Positions 15,967 to 22,945 of a stretch of DNA of 41,157 nucleotides are shown here, one piece after another. The notes beneath the pieces are model-generated. The model was not told the DNA's origin. It did no database searches and saw only the letters and a program-made list of their open reading frames with translations. This DNA comes from an uncultured Methanobrevibacter sp. (GTDB lineage Archaea; Methanobacteriota; Methanobacteria; Methanobacteriales; Methanobacteriaceae): NCBI RefSeq assembly GCF_902769175.1, contig NZ_CACXNW010000041.1:1-41157 (forward strand), given 5' to 3'. Made by a program: the position numbers and the translations under genes. Numbering within the stretch: position 1 is the stretch's first letter; each line of letters begins with the position of its first letter.

Positions 15967-16007
15967 AGTTTAGAAACTTAGATTATAAAAATCTAAGCAT
16001 CTAAACT
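15967..16007. promoter_or_regulatory. Two-tier palindrome around a TATA-like core upstream of ppaC
   Basis: AGTTTAGA (15967-15974) pairs with TCTAAACT (16000-16007), and inside it CTTAGAT (15977-15983) pairs with ATCTAAG (15991-15997). The 7-base centre is TATAAAA. Fifteen base pairs with only two 2-base interruptions is unlikely by chance even in AT-rich DNA. The position suits the TATA box of ppaC on the minus strand, or of the small plus-strand frame at 16063. It could be a repressor operator or a 5' UTR hairpin. Confidence 0.45.
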
Positions 16008-16062
16008 TGAATTAATAACTATACCAAAAAAGAAAACTAGAAACTAATGTAAAGGGGGTGAT

Positions 16063-16170
16063 ATGTTAAAAGAATATTCTAAAAGTATAGTTAAAAATTC
16101 TATGATTATATATATAGAATCAAGACATATAAATACTTTGCTATCATTAACAAGCAATGATAAAAATTAA
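16063..16170 (+). CDS. Possible 35-residue small protein with strong ribosome binding site
   Basis: ATG 16063 is preceded by AAAGGGGGTGAT, one of the best Shine-Dalgarno matches in the window. The frame closes at TAA 16168-16170 and is followed by a T run. The peptide is basic and partly hydrophobic (begins MLKEYSKSIVKNSM). I do not recognise it. It is divergent from ppaC and shares the palindromic promoter region. The strength of the site is the main support; composition is not diagnostic. Confidence 0.35.
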   Translation: MLKEYSKSIVKNSMIIYIESRHINTLLSLTSNDKN

Positions 16171-16750
16171 AATTTTTTTATAACCATTGAAAAAGAAATA
16201 AAATAAATTTTAAGTACTTTGAAATAGCATAAACTAAAAAAATAGAATATTTATTACTCAACAATTGAAATAATAATTAACAATGAATAAAATGCAAAAT
16301 AAAGTCTTAAAAATAGATTTAAGAATATTTAAAAATTTTATAATAAAACAATGTTATAAAAATAAACTGTTTAATGAAAATCTGTAAATCATTATTAAAC
16401 TGTTTAAATGAATTTTAAAAACAATAAGAGAATGAACAAATAATTAAAATCAGGACTAGAAATAAATTTTTAAAAAAAATAAGCAAAAAAACAAAGAATT
16501 AAAATCAAGAAATATAATCCAAATATTTGAAAATATCCAGAAAATATATCTTTGATTTAAAATTCGAAGTTTTAAGTATTTTCCTATAAAGAACATCTTA
16601 ACTTCCAATGAAATGATCATCATTAGATGAATGCTTTTCACCAAAAGCCAATGTTCCTTGATAATAATATGAATATATTAATATAAACAACTAATCCGAG
16701 AGCATTTGAAAAGAAATAATTTAGAAAAAAATAAAAAAAATGAAAATGCC
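16171..16750. other. AT-rich region with possible gene relics
   Basis: No intact gene. On the minus strand at about 16545-16680 one frame reads protein-like sequence (TLAFGEKHSSNDDHFIGS before a stop), and a second frame at about 16650-16715 reads a hydrophobic stretch (NALGLVVYINIFILL). They look like the decayed ends of one or two unidentified genes. Evidence is compositional only. Confidence 0.25.
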
Positions 16751-16963: not shown

Positions 16964-18309
16964 TCAAACTACATTTAAATCTTCCTTATCCTTTGATTCA
17001 AAATGCCAGAGGAGTAAGAACAATATAATTAAATTTAATATCGCTTGCAAGACTTCATTAAATGCAATAGCAATTATTATGGAGAAACCAAAAAGGAAGG
17101 TAAGGCCTTATTGATAGAATCATATATACTTCAAGAGCCATTTTTAAAAGTGTTAGTACAAGGGAATAATAACTTTTACCAAATCCATCCAACATTTTAG
17201 AGGATATGATAGATATAGGAATACTTAAAAGTATGAATACTCCAAGACAGTAATGACAAAAACTGAAGGTTCCATATCCAGAATGCTGAAAGCATTATAG
17301 ATAAAATCCCTCATATAAATAAAGATGATTGAAATTACAATTGAGGTTAAAAGTGATATCTTAAGCACATATTTATACATCTGCTTTAACTTTCCAACTT
17401 CCTTCGCACCGAACAAGTGACCTGTAACACTCATTAACCCTCTACCGTATCCTTTTACTGGAGCTATAAGCAAATCTTTTATTTTAATTGATGTTGCATA
17501 AAGGACGATACCCTTTGTACCTAACTCCTCAATCAATATTCCATTTAGGAACACTGCGTAAAGACACCATAATGCATTGTCAAAGAAATTAGGAATAGCG
17601 ACTTTTAAGATTTCATAATATATTTTAGGACTGTTTTTAAAATATTTTAAGCTTAATGGAACCTTAGTCCTTTGGGAATAGTACCAATAAAACGTTACTA
17701 TGACAGATATTAAGGTAGCGAGAATGGTAGCAACTGCTGCACCGAAAACACCCATGCCAAATGTAAAAATGAAAATAGGATCCAAAACTAAATTTAGGAT
17801 ATTTGCTCCAATCATTACAAATTTAGGTGTTTTTGAGTCCCCTTCCGCTTGTAGTGTCTCAGCAAAATAATTCTCTAATAACAACACGACAGAACAGGCC
17901 AATAAGGGCATAATATATAAAACTACCAAATCTAAGGATTCCCTTATTTTCATCAAAACGAAAATTTCATTTAAAAAGAATATGCTTATCAAACATATAA
18001 CCCATATAATGCCGATAACAACTAATCCATGTATTATTGAGTTGTATGAACCTTCATAATCACCAAACCCAATAAACCGGGACATTATAGAATTAGTTCC
18101 CTGACCTATAGAATCCCAAATGAACAAATCAAGACAAATAAGGGAGCAGTTACACTTACAGCATAAAATCCTTGAGCAGATAGCTTTGAAACCCAAAACA
18201 TATCAACTAAACCGTAAAGTGCATCAAAAATCATAAAACCTAAAATTGGAATTGTCAATTTCCAAAAGGATTTTTTAGGAGAGCTAACTAAATCAATTTT
18301 ATCATACAT
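16964..18309 (-). pseudogene. MATE-family multidrug/Na+ antiporter, three frameshifts
   Basis: Reading across three frames gives a MATE-type transporter of about 448 residues, the usual family length. It runs from ATG 18309 (KSFWKLTIPILGFMIFDALY) to TGA 16964. Landmarks include VDMFWVSKLSAQGFYAVSV in the first helices, GQGTNSIMSRFIG and AEGDSKTPKFVMIGANILN, which match MATE loop motifs. Breaks are at 18115-18117 (GGG in the gene, probably GGGG originally), about 17241 (one base lost) and about 17108 (one base gained or two lost). Twelve membrane helices would be expected. MATE proteins export drugs or toxins using Na+ or H+. Three breaks suggest a true pseudogene, though sequence error is possible. 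Confidence 0.8.
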
Positions 18310-18528: not shown

Positions 18529-20451
18529 CTATTCAAACAAATTATCTTCAATATCCAATTCCCTGCAAACTTTTTTAATTTCTGAAGTAACTTCCTTAAT
18601 TTCCTCTATTTTTGATTGATGCTCTTTTATTAATTCATCAGCATTTATTTTTTTAGGTTCAGGATAAGTGTCTACATAACGAGGAATGTTTAAATTAAAA
18701 TCATTCTTTTCAATATCCTCAATACTTGCCCTATAGGAATAAATTTCATCCTTTTCAGCTGTAAGGGAATGCTTATCCACTTCCACCCTATTTTTGTAAA
18801 TATCAACTATTATATCAATATCCTCTTCCCTGAAATTGTTGATTAGCTTAAAATAATTGAATTTGCGGGAAGCATCAATGAATAAAACATCATCATATAT
18901 CCTATTTTTCTTAAATATCATTAGACAGGTAGGAATATTGGTACTATAAAACATGTTTGCTGGAAGGCCAATGACAGCATCCAAATAATTGTTTTTGATG
19001 ATTTGCTTCCTAATAGCTCCTTCAGCAGCAGATCTGAATAAAACACCATGAGGAACAACAACAATCATGATTCCATCATCATCCAAATGATATAGCATAT
19101 GCTGAATGAAAGCGTAATCCGCTTTTGTGCGAGGAGCAATCATTTTATAATCCATAAATCTTACATCATCAAGATATGCCTTATCATCAGTCCATTTGGA
19201 ATTGAATGGGATTTCACTTACAACTGCATCAAATGTGTAATTCAAGTGTTGAGGCTGTTCCAAAGTATCTCCCTGCTTAATGTCAAAATCATTATAATGA
19301 ATGTTGTGGAGAATCATATTTTCCCTTGCAATATTATAGAATGATGCATTAATCTCTTGACCACAAATGAAATTGCAGGTTAACTCTTTGTAAACTTCTA
19401 TAAGCAATGAAGCGGAACCACAACAAGGATCATAAACAGAAAATATATGATCTTTTTGAGAAGCTATCAACCTTGCAATTAATCTTGAAACATCCTTAGG
19501 AGTATAATAATCAAGAGAATTAGATGAATTCAGTGAAAATTCGCTTAATAAATATTCAAATCCATTTCCAATAATATCATCAATGTACTCTTCATAATCT
19601 GGGTCTTCATCCTCAAAATCATTTCCATAATCATCATAAAAATCTCTATCAATATCAGCATCAACCTTAGGTTCAATAATTAAGCTCTTTTCAAACATTA
19701 AGGCGTCTGCTTCAACACTTAAGCTCTTTTTAGCCCTTAAGTATTCTGCTTCAATACTATTGAGCTCTCTTAATTGATTAAACTCAGCATCCATATTACT
19801 CTTTCTGAAATGGTGAGGAGGCAAATTAGACTTGTTGGCTAAACGAGACCTTTTTAAATCATAGCTATGATGAGGAGTTTTAGCATATTTGCTGTTTTCA
19901 ATAGCAGACCGATGAAGAAGAGTATTATTCAGATTAGGCTTGCTTAAATCAAAATGAACTGAAGAAAGAGCATCCAATATATTAAAAACAACTCTATTCT
20001 TATCCTCTAAGGTTTTTCCTAATTGAGATGCATTCAAGTCCACTCCTTCAAATAAATTTAAGAAATCCTCTTCACTAGCCCTTCCACGAGAGGACTCACT
20101 GATTTCATTGAAGGCCTTTTCCAATTCCTCAATAATGATATTTCCATAATTTTTAGAAGAGACAACATTTCTAAATAAAAGGTCTGGCTTTAAAAAGTAT
20201 CCTAAATCCCTTATTGAATTTTCCATTAAGTTATTTTTATAAATATCCTCATTATAGGCATCTTCAAAATCAATATAATCCCATTTTATTTTTTTATTAA
20301 CGTATGCCTCTACTTTTTCAGACAAATACTTGTAAGAGATAAAACCTAAAAAATACTTTTGAAATTCGTCATCAGTTAAAAAACCGATTTTCTTTTCCCT
20401 CTTTAAATCCTCATAAATAGACCATAATTGGCGCCCTAAAAAATTTGCCAT
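18529..20451 (-). CDS. hsdM: HsdM-like type I DNA methyltransferase subunit with altered motif IV
   Basis: The 640-residue protein has an HsdM N-terminal helical domain (FLGRQLWSIYEDLKREKK, then LTDDEFQKYFLGFISYKYLS). An unusual insert of about 100 residues follows (about 200-300), ending in a very acidic stretch. The N6-adenine methyltransferase domain has YYTPKDVSRLI, motif I DPCCGSASLL and an EINASFYNIARENMILH strand. HsdM normally has (N/D)PP(Y/F) at motif IV; here the same place reads VVSEIPFNSKW, so the catalytic Asn is Glu and the first Pro is Ile. The enzyme may be inactive or altered. The C-terminal part (PHGVLFRSAAEGAIRKQI, then FNLNIPRYVDTY) is typical. It follows the hsdS-like gene by 35 bases; no hsdR is nearby. 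Confidence 0.85.
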   Translation of the reverse strand: MANFLGRQLWSIYEDLKREKKIGFLTDDEFQKYFLGFISYKYLSEKVEAYVNKKIKWDYIDFEDAYNEDIYKNNLMENSIRDLGYFLKPDLLFRNVVSSKNYGNIIIEELEKAFNEISESSRGRASEEDFLNLFEGVDLNASQLGKTLEDKNRVVFNILDALSSVHFDLSKPNLNNTLLHRSAIENSKYAKTPHHSYDLKRSRLANKSNLPPHHFRKSNMDAEFNQLRELNSIEAEYLRAKKSLSVEADALMFEKSLIIEPKVDADIDRDFYDDYGNDFEDEDPDYEEYIDDIIGNGFEYLLSEFSLNSSNSLDYYTPKDVSRLIARLIASQKDHIFSVYDPCCGSASLLIEVYKELTCNFICGQEINASFYNIARENMILHNIHYNDFDIKQGDTLEQPQHLNYTFDAVVSEIPFNSKWTDDKAYLDDVRFMDYKMIAPRTKADYAFIQHMLYHLDDDGIMIVVVPHGVLFRSAAEGAIRKQIIKNNYLDAVIGLPANMFYSTNIPTCLMIFKKNRIYDDVLFIDASRKFNYFKLINNFREEDIDIIVDIYKNRVEVDKHSLTAEKDEIYSYRASIEDIEKNDFNLNIPRYVDTYPEPKKINADELIKEHQSKIEEIKEVTSEIKKVCRELDIEDNLFE

Positions 20452-20486: not shown

Positions 20487-21044
20487 TTAAGTCAGTTCGT
20501 CTAATAGATTTTTCATAATCATCTTTTCATTCTGTCTTTCTATATCCACTAATTCCAAGTTTAAATTAATGCGCTTATCCATTAAATTAAATAATTTGCC
20601 ATATTTCCTTTGAGTTTCATAATCAGGAACAGGCAATCTGATTTCCTTTAGGTGAGTGGTTTTTAAAATCTTTAATGTGGTTCCTTCCTGAATCTTATGC
20701 AATTCCTTTGGGAAAATATCACTTTTTAAAAGATGGAATATGAAATCAACATCAAATCCTTCCTTGACTCTTACAACTGCATAATACATTGGAATGAGTA
20801 TTTCCTCTACTTCAAGCTTGCTGACAGTAGATCCTGCAAGCAAAATAACAATATCATTTTTTCTAGAGTAGAATTTAGGATTTATATCATCAGAAACATT
20901 TACCTTATCCGTATCAATTTTAGAACTGTCTTCATATATCTTTTTAAGCATTACCTTTTCTTCCAAATGTCCTTTTTGATAACGTTTAACTCTGATTCCA
21001 GTAAAGATTTCTGCAATGTCGCCAAACTTATATTCTTTTATCAT
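20487..21044 (-). CDS. hsdS: Half-length HsdS-like specificity subunit
   Basis: At 185 residues this is about half of a usual HsdS. It holds one target recognition domain (about 1-140: YKFGDIAEIFTGIRVKRYQKG, then LKILKTTHLKEIRLPVPDYE at its end) and one central coiled-coil repeat (about 145-180, NLMDKRINLNLELVDIERQ). Two copies, or dimerisation, would be needed to build a two-part recognition site. There is no sign of a cut second half downstream, so it may be a natural half-subunit. GGTGAG precedes ATG 21044. It is the first gene of an S-M pair without a restriction subunit. Confidence 0.8.
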   Translation of the reverse strand: MIKEYKFGDIAEIFTGIRVKRYQKGHLEEKVMLKKIYEDSSKIDTDKVNVSDDINPKFYSRKNDIVILLAGSTVSKLEVEEILIPMYYAVVRVKEGFDVDFIFHLLKSDIFPKELHKIQEGTTLKILKTTHLKEIRLPVPDYETQRKYGKLFNLMDKRINLNLELVDIERQNEKMIMKNLLDELT

Positions 21045-21223
21045 ATACTCACCGCAATATTAAAAATTAAAAATCAATGATTAATTTCCTTCTAAAATAT
21101 ATTTTGTAATTACTTGTTCTTAAACTTAAGGGCATAATTTATAAAAATTTTAAAAAAATAGGATAAAAACAGCAGGATCATTTAAACAATGAAAATGAAA
21201 AAGAAGAATTAGAGATGAAAAAG

Positions 21224-21507
21224 AAAAGATAATCCCCTTGAATATCTTTTCATACATAGAATAAGAATCACCCCCAGTTCTTATCCCATAAGAATAAAGG
21301 AATACAACTCACCCCCAAATCATATCCCTATGACAATAAACCATGATTAAAGAATAAGAATCACCCCCAGTTCTTATCCTAAATGAATAAAGGAATACAA
21401 CTCACCCCCAAATCATATTCCCATGACAATGAATCAATATATTTAGATTAAGAATAAGAATCACCCCAATTCTTATTCAAACCCTAAAATATAATCACCC
21501 CATATTA
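21224..21507 (+). ncRNA. Candidate structured RNA: seven hairpins with C-rich loops
   Basis: Seven consecutive inverted repeats enclose CCCC or CCCCC. Stems are: AAAAGATA/TATCTTTT (21224-21250); ATAAGAA/TTCTTAT (21261-21284 and 21354-21377); GGAATA/TATTCC (21392-21421, and an imperfect copy at 21299-21328); a perfect 10-bp GAATAAGAAT/ATTCTTATTC (21452-21478); and AATAT/ATATT (21488-21506). Six loops read (T)CACCCC(C). The block is partly a 93-100 bp tandem repeat (landmarks at 21258, 21351, 21451). The plus strand is followed by a T-rich tract near 21520-21541, and TTTATAAAAA near 21137 could be a TATA box, so a plus-strand RNA is plausible. No coding frame fits. Transcription itself is not shown. 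Confidence 0.4.
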
Positions 21508-21599
21508 CATGGCTTGCTAATTTACTTTTTGGATTTTTTTACTTGCAAACAAATTAATAGATAATAATCACCAGATCTTGAATCACCATAATCATTTTT

Positions 21600-21693
21600 C
21601 AAATTCAATCTTTTTTATAAATTCATCGAGATTAGAATTAAGTTTTCAAATTCAATCTTTTTTTATAAATTCATCGAGATTAGAATTAATGAT
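21600..21693. repeat. Two-copy tandem repeat, unit 47 bp
   Basis: CAAATTCAATCTTTTTT starts at 21600 and 21647, each followed by ATAAATTCATCGAGATTAG. On the minus strand a protein-like fragment NSNLDEFIKK appears in both copies, so it may come from the end of a lost gene. Confidence 0.75.
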
Positions 21694-22150
21694 GAAACTT
21701 ATTTTAATCAATCATTAAGGATCGGTGCTTTGTCAGAATTTGAGATGGTAGAAACAAAACAACGAACGAAGTGCTAAATGAATACAGGAGTTGAAACAAT
21801 GAAATAATCAAACAGGGAGGCTAACATTACACCAATCCCATTAATGAAAACCCTTTTCAAGTTCCAATTAATGTTTTTTAATGATTGAAAAAAATAAGCT
21901 TTTCAAATTAACTAAGTTTTTTTTCTAATCACAATTAGTAATATGAACTAAGTTATATATAAAGTTTTCGTTCTAAAACTTAATGACACTTGACTTAAAT
22001 TATATGACAATATTAAAATAAAAAGGAAAAAATAGAAAAAGATGGCAAAAAATCATTGCAAATCAGATAAGAAAACAGTGAAAATAGTAAAAAAAAAGAT
22101 TAGAATAAAAATTAAAGAAATAATAAAAAAATAAAAGATTTTAATTAATT
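21694..22150. other. Intergenic region downstream of the secreted-protein gene
   Basis: No intact gene. The stretch 21720-21830 is less AT-rich than its surroundings and shows short broken frames on the plus strand (for example EFEMVETKQ), possibly a gene relic. Around 21950-21981 lies a TATA-like TTATATATAAAG next to an inverted repeat AAGTTTT/AAAACTT (21962-21981). The rest is A-rich DNA before the stop of the next gene. Confidence 0.35.
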
Positions 22151-22945
22151 TTAATTAAAATCTTGATTATAAGCATCTGTATCTTCCACACCGTTTGTAT
22201 AATGCTTATTGTTTTTAGTGTCAATAGCTTCATTAGGCCCATTCATACGATCAATATGGTGAAGATCATTTGCATCATCGTACTCCCTAATGTAGTCATT
22301 GTCCTGACCAGACCAGTAATATCCATCAGGGACAGTTGCTGATGATGAATTTGACTGAGTTCCATTTGAATTTGGATTGAACATAGCTCCACTATTAGAG
22401 CCTGTGCTGTCAATACCAGTATTGTTTGCATCTGCAGCAGTTACATTCTCTCCTTGATAGGTTTCAGTGCTGTTAGCATCTTCATTAAAGTATTGATATC
22501 TTGCAGAAGAAATCATATGCTCCAATATTTCAGGATCCTTACAAATTATCAAAATATTGTCGTGTGTGACATAGTTACCAATGAAAGCCATATATGTGCC
22601 ATTTTCTTCATTATGCCAAACGGTTTCATTTCCAATTGTTTCCTGAACTGAATGTGCCATAAATTCATTGCGTATATATTCCAATTCAACTGCAGCAACC
22701 TGATTGCCTTGTTCACTATTGAAAAACATCAAAGTCAAATCATGTTTGGTATCATTTATAACATGAATTCCCCCATTGATAGTGGTATTGCTGACTTGAT
22801 CACTTACAGGCATTTCAATGCTGGATGTGCTTGAAAGTTCAACCCTGCTGTAATGAACAGTTTCATCAAAGTTTAATAAAAAGAAGGAACAGGACAAAAC
22901 AACGACAATAACTAAAGCAACAAGTAATAAACGCCTTAAATCCAC
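22151..22945 (-). CDS. Membrane-anchored or secreted hypothetical protein
   Basis: The 264-residue protein begins with MDLRRLLLVALVIVVVLSCS, an uncleaved signal anchor or signal peptide, then an extracellular part. Residues about 35-150 look folded (mixed strands, for example HDLTLMFFNS and GTYMAFIGNYV). Residues about 155-205 are a flexible Asn/Ser/Thr/Gly linker with many N-glycosylation-type sequons. The C-terminal 55 residues are acidic and His/Asn/Asp-rich (YYWSGQDNDYIREYDD). The start is GTG 22945 after GGAGATG. I do not recognise a family; this layout is typical of lineage-specific surface proteins in Methanobrevibacter. No neighbour suggests a function. Confidence 0.75.
   Translation of the reverse strand: MDLRRLLLVALVIVVVLSCSFFLLNFDETVHYSRVELSSTSSIEMPVSDQVSNTTINGGIHVINDTKHDLTLMFFNSEQGNQVAAVELEYIRNEFMAHSVQETIGNETVWHNEENGTYMAFIGNYVTHDNILIICKDPEILEHMISSARYQYFNEDANSTETYQGENVTAADANNTGIDSTGSNSGAMFNPNSNGTQSNSSSATVPDGYYWSGQDNDYIREYDDANDLHHIDRMNGPNEAIDTKNNKHYTNGVEDTDAYNQDFN

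Follow-up and report, generated by a model that had tools for sequence, protein, structure and literature searches.

Upstream of an hsdS gene in an uncultured Methanobrevibacter sp. lies a row of short inverted repeats with a recurring center, and the question raised by this locus is whether the row is a mere DNA repeat or a selected RNA structure and, if the latter, which strand is selected and what it might be for. The window referred to here is the whole stretch analyzed, 41,157 nucleotides of contig NZ_CACXNW010000041.1 (assembly GCF_902769175.1), and all coordinates are positions in it. An earlier note on this DNA, made from the letters alone, had described seven successive stem-loops, and these were borne out at positions 21223-21516. 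The duplication that it had seen was also found, as an 86-nt direct repeat with 92% identity and a spacing of 93. Two of its generalizations hold for most of the array only: the loop is not kept in the first hairpin by coordinate, where AAGGGGAUU replaces the usual loop, and the stem is broken in the last.

In the order of the minus-strand RNA, the broken member comes first (21488-21506), with a 5-bp core, the loop GGGGUGAUU and a longer imperfect stem spanning 21478-21516. Hairpin 2 (21452-21478) is the perfect 10-bp stem that the note had singled out, with the loop UGGGGUG. It is followed by hairpin 3 (21391-21422; 12 bp including four G-U pairs, loop UGGGGGUG) and hairpin 4 (21351-21380; 10 bp, loop CUGGGGGUGA), the duplicates of which are hairpin 5 (21298-21329; 12 bp including four G-U pairs) and hairpin 6 (21255-21290; 13 bp including three G-U pairs), respectively. 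In hairpin 7 (21223-21251) the stem is intact and the loop has diverged to CAAGGGG, the normal loop being present in several orthologues. A covariance model, R1, matched five of the seven, hairpins 2 to 6, each on the minus strand with an E value between 4e-9 and 5e-6, four of these being its own training sequences and the only independent match being that to hairpin 2 (21449-21481, E 5e-6). No open reading frame of at least 80 amino acids was found within 21080-22151, and Rfam gave no match up to E 1 over 21000-22160; at the gathering score, the only Rfam match in the window was a tRNA.

Of 19 genomes of the genus, 11 carry the array, each at a single place. These 11, all from the Methanobrevibacter ruminantium/olleyae group, are the window genome (G000), G002, G004, G005, G007, G008, G011, G012, G015, G016 and G018. 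Every one of the 11 arrays lies upstream of an orthologous hsdS on the same strand, and the order of the locus, where the contig suffices, is DHH phosphoesterase, hsdM, hsdS, array, an unknown protein of about 255 aa, polyprenyl synthase and RNase J. A BLASTN search of 99 genomes, the source genome included, gave clear homologues confined to the genus; the array of G007, with very different stems, was missed by BLASTN and reached via an HsdS profile. The eight array-less genomes are G001, G003, G006, G009, G010, G013, G014 and G017. In G003 and G009 the contig ends at the array position, with hsdS, hsdM and a second conserved RNA (nc2, see below) present in the former and hsdM and nc2 in the latter. 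Only a divergent HsdS was found in G001 and G006, and there was no HsdS match at 1e-10 in G013, G014 and G017.

A dispersed repeat was considered and rejected, the R1 clusters sitting at a single locus per genome; many of the R1 matches in the 11 array genomes are sequences that trained the model. The array thus shares with REP-type repeats the palindromic units in intergenic DNA, but not the dispersal. Under stricter filters, R1 recovered no further cluster besides the genus loci in 138 genomes of the family. Beyond the genus, isolated single matches turned up in five genomes of the family (E 0.0018-0.06); these, and another at G016:C97, were taken as chance. A viral origin was likewise rejected: scanning viral contigs with one exact pattern gave 15 single matches and no array, and no viral relative of HsdS was found.

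Structure is far more abundant in these arrays than composition predicts. An unbiased search of the 11 arrays identified 56 hairpins of at least 8 bp, 5.1 per array compared with 0.93 after shuffling, and GGGG was present in 54 of the 56. Each array holds three to nine hairpins, with stems mostly of 8-16 bp. Picking by the core pattern GGGG..TG gave 64 matches, 63 of which were scored after a weak site in G011 had been dropped; their summed stem score was 1220, which none of 500 shuffles of the flanks reached (476±20), and for all 64 it was 1228, reached by none of 300 (487±22). The constancy of the core is partly due to this picking pattern, inside which GGGGUG falls. A slightly different core pattern gave 63 hairpins, 58 of them distinct. 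The alignment used for covariation was made of the 47 distinct five-G hairpins; the 11 distinct four-G hairpins were left out, the gap introduced by MAFFT having fallen outside the loop.

In this alignment, 84% of the 564 stem cells are paired. Two-sided changes affect 12 of 12 stem pairs, where shuffling gives 10.1 and 39 of 500 shuffles reach the observed count, and 133 cells, where shuffling gives 50.6 and none of 500 shuffles comes up to the observed number, with the proviso that the hairpins contributed by closely related genomes are in part duplicates and not independent. The covariation score was 0.63 versus 0.25 after shuffling (0 of 500 as high) and 0.13-0.25 when slid. These compensatory changes support selection for stem and loop beyond a mere DNA repeat, as the earlier note had suggested, and the pattern it had named as telling, stems that change in a compensating manner around unchanged loops in other Methanobrevibacter genomes, is strongly evident. 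The stem decay that it had set against this is limited to single members, among them the G011 hairpin at -476 with its weak stem, and in the window hairpin 21223-21251 and one G005 hairpin it is the loop rather than the stem that has changed. The array is a real and strongly conserved structured RNA element.

Wobble pairs reveal which strand is selected. Under symmetric scoring, in which G-U and A-C are treated alike, the hsdS (minus) strand has 669 Watson-Crick, 53 G-U, 5 A-C and 20 other pairs, and in the unfiltered set there are 54 G-U versus 6 A-C. Counted per distinct hairpin, 32 lean toward G-U, one leans toward A-C and 24 are ties. The corresponding p-values, 3.5e-11 and 7.9e-9, overstate the independence of the data because the hairpins of close relatives are partly mutual copies; in the diverged genomes G011 and G007 alone, the counts are 4:0 and 4:2. 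Furthermore, a hairpin search with plus-strand pairing found 28 hairpins, compared with 56 on the minus strand. The folding z-score fails to separate the strands (-4.1 minus, -4.8 plus), and in the minimum-energy fold of the minus strand of the window the duplicated hairpins pair with each other. From the excess of G-U over A-C, we conclude that the minus strand is the selected RNA and that its loops read UGGGG(G)UGA. The plus-strand UCACCCC loops of the earlier note are not supported and that strand is rejected, since the 53 G-U pairs would become mismatches there, whereas its alternative, GGGGGUGA loops on the minus strand, proved correct.

Signals on either side of the array suggest how such an RNA may be made. 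A predicted promoter, P1, would drive minus-strand transcription from a TATA box near 21960 (TTTATATA, 21956-21963), which is present in 11 of 11 genomes; the 131-nt region around it has BLASTN matches in the array's own 11 of the 19 genus genomes (E<=5e-18). The operator-like element GTCATTAAGTTTTAGAAC (21970-21987, minus strand) lies upstream of P1, is the sole zero-mismatch match in the genome and has a related copy before hsdS. The sequence TGTCATTAAATTTAAGAAC before the TATA box occurs as a close variant in nine genomes, in looser form in G011 and in deviating form in G007. A promoter-like site, P2, lies between the array and hsdS and carries the operator-like element GCCCTTAAGTTTAAGAAC (21116-21133, minus strand), with CTTAA(G/C)TTTAAGAAC and then an A+T-rich stretch at 11 of 11 loci.

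The predicted RNA would begin with a 5' domain (21677-21932, minus strand) that alignment A5 and RNAalifold fold into long-range closing helices and an internal helix, followed by the hairpin array presenting UGGGG(G)UG(A) loops. The predicted helices are paired in 94% of cells, and two-sided changes occur in 11 of 41 pairs, a number that none of 500 shuffles reached (2.4 on shuffling); both the structure and the change counts derive from that one alignment. Within the RNA region, the closing helix has its 3' strand present twice, owing to a direct repeat of 47-48 nt (21596-21689). The other end is less sharply marked. A U7 run at 21152-21158 is a weak candidate for the end of the array RNA, which in the window would then be about 780 nt long, ending before P2. 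A run of at least six T between array and P2 was present in 11 of 11 genomes, where shuffling expects 7.1, and U-runs inside the unit were not depleted (1-4 versus 0.7-1.9 expected). These signals allow for a stand-alone RNA, about 530-1050 nt long across the genomes, and also for a single transcript running through hsdS.

The operator pattern at three mismatches was found 48+48 times, with no enrichment over the reversed control (67+69), and its best matches, at P1, in the leader of a vWA-domain gene on contig 9 and at P2, give a suggestive hint of a regulon. The leader of this vWA gene has a P1-like promoter region (L119 1455-1770 on contig 9 of the window genome, L182 in G012 and L185 in G004), and in the window genome it contains a hairpin with a AGGGGGTG loop. 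It was absent among the R1 matches up to E 5. The vWA gene is a possible regulon partner of the array locus.

The gene that every array precedes encodes a half-length HsdS of 185 aa with one specificity domain (20487-21044, minus strand; Pfam Methylase_S, E 1e-4; PADLOC Specificity_I). It is 68-79% identical to nine relatives, with a mean column identity of 83%, which is high for a specificity subunit. Next to it lies a gene for an HsdM-like protein of 640 aa (18529-20451, minus strand; Pfam N6_Mtase, E 1.5e-90; TIGR00497 above cut-off), with 3lkd and EcoR124I HsdM as relatives by profile. The pair resembles a type I restriction-modification system in its HsdM family and its HsdS specificity domain, but a Pfam scan of 18 window proteins identified no HsdR domain, the HsdS is of half length, and the genes are placed between two conserved RNAs. 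In an active type I methyltransferase, two specificity domains, or a dimer of half-length HsdS subunits, would be expected.

The HsdM-like protein also departs from an active type I methyltransferase in its motifs, and a loss of methyltransferase activity is predicted. Motif IV, NPP(F/Y), is altered to (Q/E)IPF in 13 of 13 genomes of the array clade (EIPF in the window), and motif I, GSGS, has become GSAS in 12, including the window genome, and GSSS in one, such that the second glycine of GSG is lost. Two solved HsdM structures that were aligned have NPPY and GSGS at the matching positions. An HsdM was aligned at 16 further loci. The canonical ANPPF and GSGS are found at 11 of them; the remaining five deviate in a different manner, and two of those five are only 20-22% identical. 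The loci L057, L056, L070, L071 and L073 have non-canonical HsdM motifs as well and are devoid of a GGGG array; the family may contain further type I systems that have been repurposed. At 14 divergent HsdS loci, neither GGGGTGA nor TCACCCC was found in 670-900 nt upstream.

That the loop stays nearly constant on stems that vary freely, in three to nine copies, argues for a partner that binds the loop and is bound in several copies. We therefore tentatively favor the hypothesis that the array RNA is a multivalent decoy, each hairpin of which would bind one copy of an RNA-binding factor and so titrate it as CsrB does CsrA. The HsdS-HsdM pair, reused as a nucleic-acid-binding regulator, would be the first candidate for this ligand because this hsdS follows every array, the methyltransferase motifs have changed and HsdS shows high conservation. 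Against a decoy speak the stem lengths, discussed below, the minimum-energy fold in which duplicated hairpins pair with each other, and our knowing of no protein with an affinity for UGGGGUGA loops. The array is present in the cultured rumen methanogen Methanobrevibacter ruminantium M1, which we take G011 to be, near 1,182,470-1,182,831 of its chromosome, and transcription and binding are thus directly testable.

The comparison with CsrB and CsrC can be taken further. According to one account, these RNAs sequester CsrA through multiple high-affinity sites with GGA in predicted hairpin loops or other single-stranded regions, and CsrA SELEX hairpins mostly have four or fewer contiguous pairs (PMC7652899). 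Like CsrB/CsrC and RsmY/RsmZ of the Gammaproteobacteria, the array has several hairpins, one G-rich loop motif, differing stems and a variable copy number. By our own comparison with CsrB and RsmZ, the loop also resembles the core of the local Shine-Dalgarno sequence, GGA there and GGUG here. Unlike them, the array is archaeal, has UGGGG(G)UGA rather than GGA in its loops, mostly 8-16 bp in its stems, an extra 5' domain and a linkage to hsdS-hsdM; it has no Rfam match at the array region of the window. It is CsrB-like in design and, by the tests run, not a member of the CsrB family. CsrA is, to our knowledge, rare in archaea.

The main and serious rival is that the 5' domain and hairpins are a cis-acting, untranslated leader of hsdS-hsdM, in which binding of HsdS-HsdM or another factor would control the operon by feedback, attenuation or stability. 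We regard this as possible, if on balance unlikely. The position directly upstream of hsdS on the same strand in every case fits cis-regulation, and the conserved T7-T8 run that comes after the initial short hairpin in the 5' domain might act as a conditional terminator. The U-runs are weak as borders of a unit, and this weakness of the case for a separate RNA end lowers the decoy hypothesis and raises the leader. However, P2 with its own operator copy separates the array from hsdS in 11 of 11 genomes, and up to nine sites seem to exceed what a cis-acting switch needs.

It is improbable, in our judgment, that the GGGGGUGA loops instead act as Shine-Dalgarno look-alikes that tie up 16S rRNA at its 3' end. 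The attraction of this idea is energetic: pairing of UGGGGGUGA with GGAUCACCUCCU, assumed to be the 16S rRNA tail (two patterns for it gave no match in four genomes, complete M1 included), would yield -13.8 kcal/mol versus -8.3 at a typical local site, and GGGGTGAT precedes the start in some genes (L181, L185). Yet GGGGTGA accounts for none of the 43 ribosome sites assigned among 111 open reading frames, many of them orthologous; these sites read AGGTGA, GGAGG, GGTGA or GGAGGTGA, and neither AGGTGA nor GGAGGTG occurs in any of the 11 arrays. The note had placed GGGGGUGA ribosome sites at three positions in the window, of which 16054 was confirmed, 1431 reads GGGGAGGTGA and 14940 (minus strand) reads GGGGGTAAATG.

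That the repeats act as DNA, as iterated palindromic sites or cruciforms such as an operator bound by HsdS-HsdM, we consider quite improbable. HsdS is a DNA-binding specificity subunit, and inverted repeats with a constant center resemble bipartite sites. An excess of G-U over A-C pairs of 53 to 5, however, is meaningless in duplex DNA; moreover, the stems are free in sequence while their pairing is maintained, and the spacing varies with the 4, 5 or 7 G of the loop. Very improbable is a pair similar to type III toxin-antitoxin systems, in which the repeat RNA inhibits the protein encoded downstream. In loci of the ToxIN type, a repeat RNA stands in front of a protein gene, as it does here, but the protein is HsdS/HsdM, with no ToxN-like ribonuclease or other ToxN relative, and the repeats conserve a structure, not a fixed sequence. 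The assembly of G-tracts from four loops into a G-quadruplex scaffold would be in keeping with the GGGG in almost all array hairpins, but G005 has only three G4 loops and the UG(A) that also recurs after the tract is superfluous for a quadruplex, and we give it scant credence. Hardly tenable is the earlier note's own model of a plus-strand RNA with C-rich loops blocking Shine-Dalgarno sites: the loops are complementary to GGGGGUGA (best case -19 kcal/mol), but the plus strand that the model needs forms half as many hairpins and is not the selected one, and GGGGGTGA-N(1-9)-ATG is rare, with 4, 8 and 5 matches in three genomes (the eight include one array hairpin) and 1, 4 and 1 in reversed-pattern controls.

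The second conserved RNA, nc2 (16484-16706, minus strand), lies behind hsdM in 11 genomes and has a TATA-like box of its own, preceded by the element AATGCTCTTGG. These 11 genomes differ from those of the array in that G003 and G009 are included and G004 and G016 are cut by contig ends; in G007 and G011, nc2 gave no BLASTN match and was recognized via its end motifs and position. Two-sided changes were seen in 6 of its 30 predicted pairs, and the terminal hairpin of the relatives (GATTATTC..GAATAATC) is lost in the window genome. In the other genomes nc2 lies between hsdM and the DHH gene. A seemingly fragmented MatE-family gene (17225-18196) separates hsdM and nc2 in the window, the only one of eight loci compared to have such a gene at this position.

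The array RNA, hsdS, hsdM and nc2 look like one cassette because G010, a genome that is 99% complete, has the same neighbors with no array, 5' domain, hsdSM or nc2 between them, and is thus a single empty site lacking all four. A more ambitious version of the decoy hypothesis, which we think fairly unlikely, is that a domesticated HsdM and half HsdS would form an RNA- or DNA-binding regulator controlled by the sponge RNA and by the second RNA of the cassette, in a circuit of the CsrA/CsrB type that these rumen methanogens would have made from restriction-modification parts. In bacteria, RNAs are known that sequester a protein by an array of hairpins. In the titles and opening lines of abstracts of the open-access papers listed in the searches, neither an archaeal protein-sequestering RNA of this kind nor the present element was mentioned. 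An archaeal RNA of this kind, conserved and with a partner open to testing, would show that the sponge design evolved convergently and that restriction-modification proteins can be recruited as regulators. Near the cassette, on the plus strand, the window also contains a conserved element of about 140 nt (15968-16110) with a tiny reading frame (MLKEYSKSIV..), the start site of which is GGGGGTGATATG in several relatives; this element is also present in G010 and therefore lies outside the cassette.
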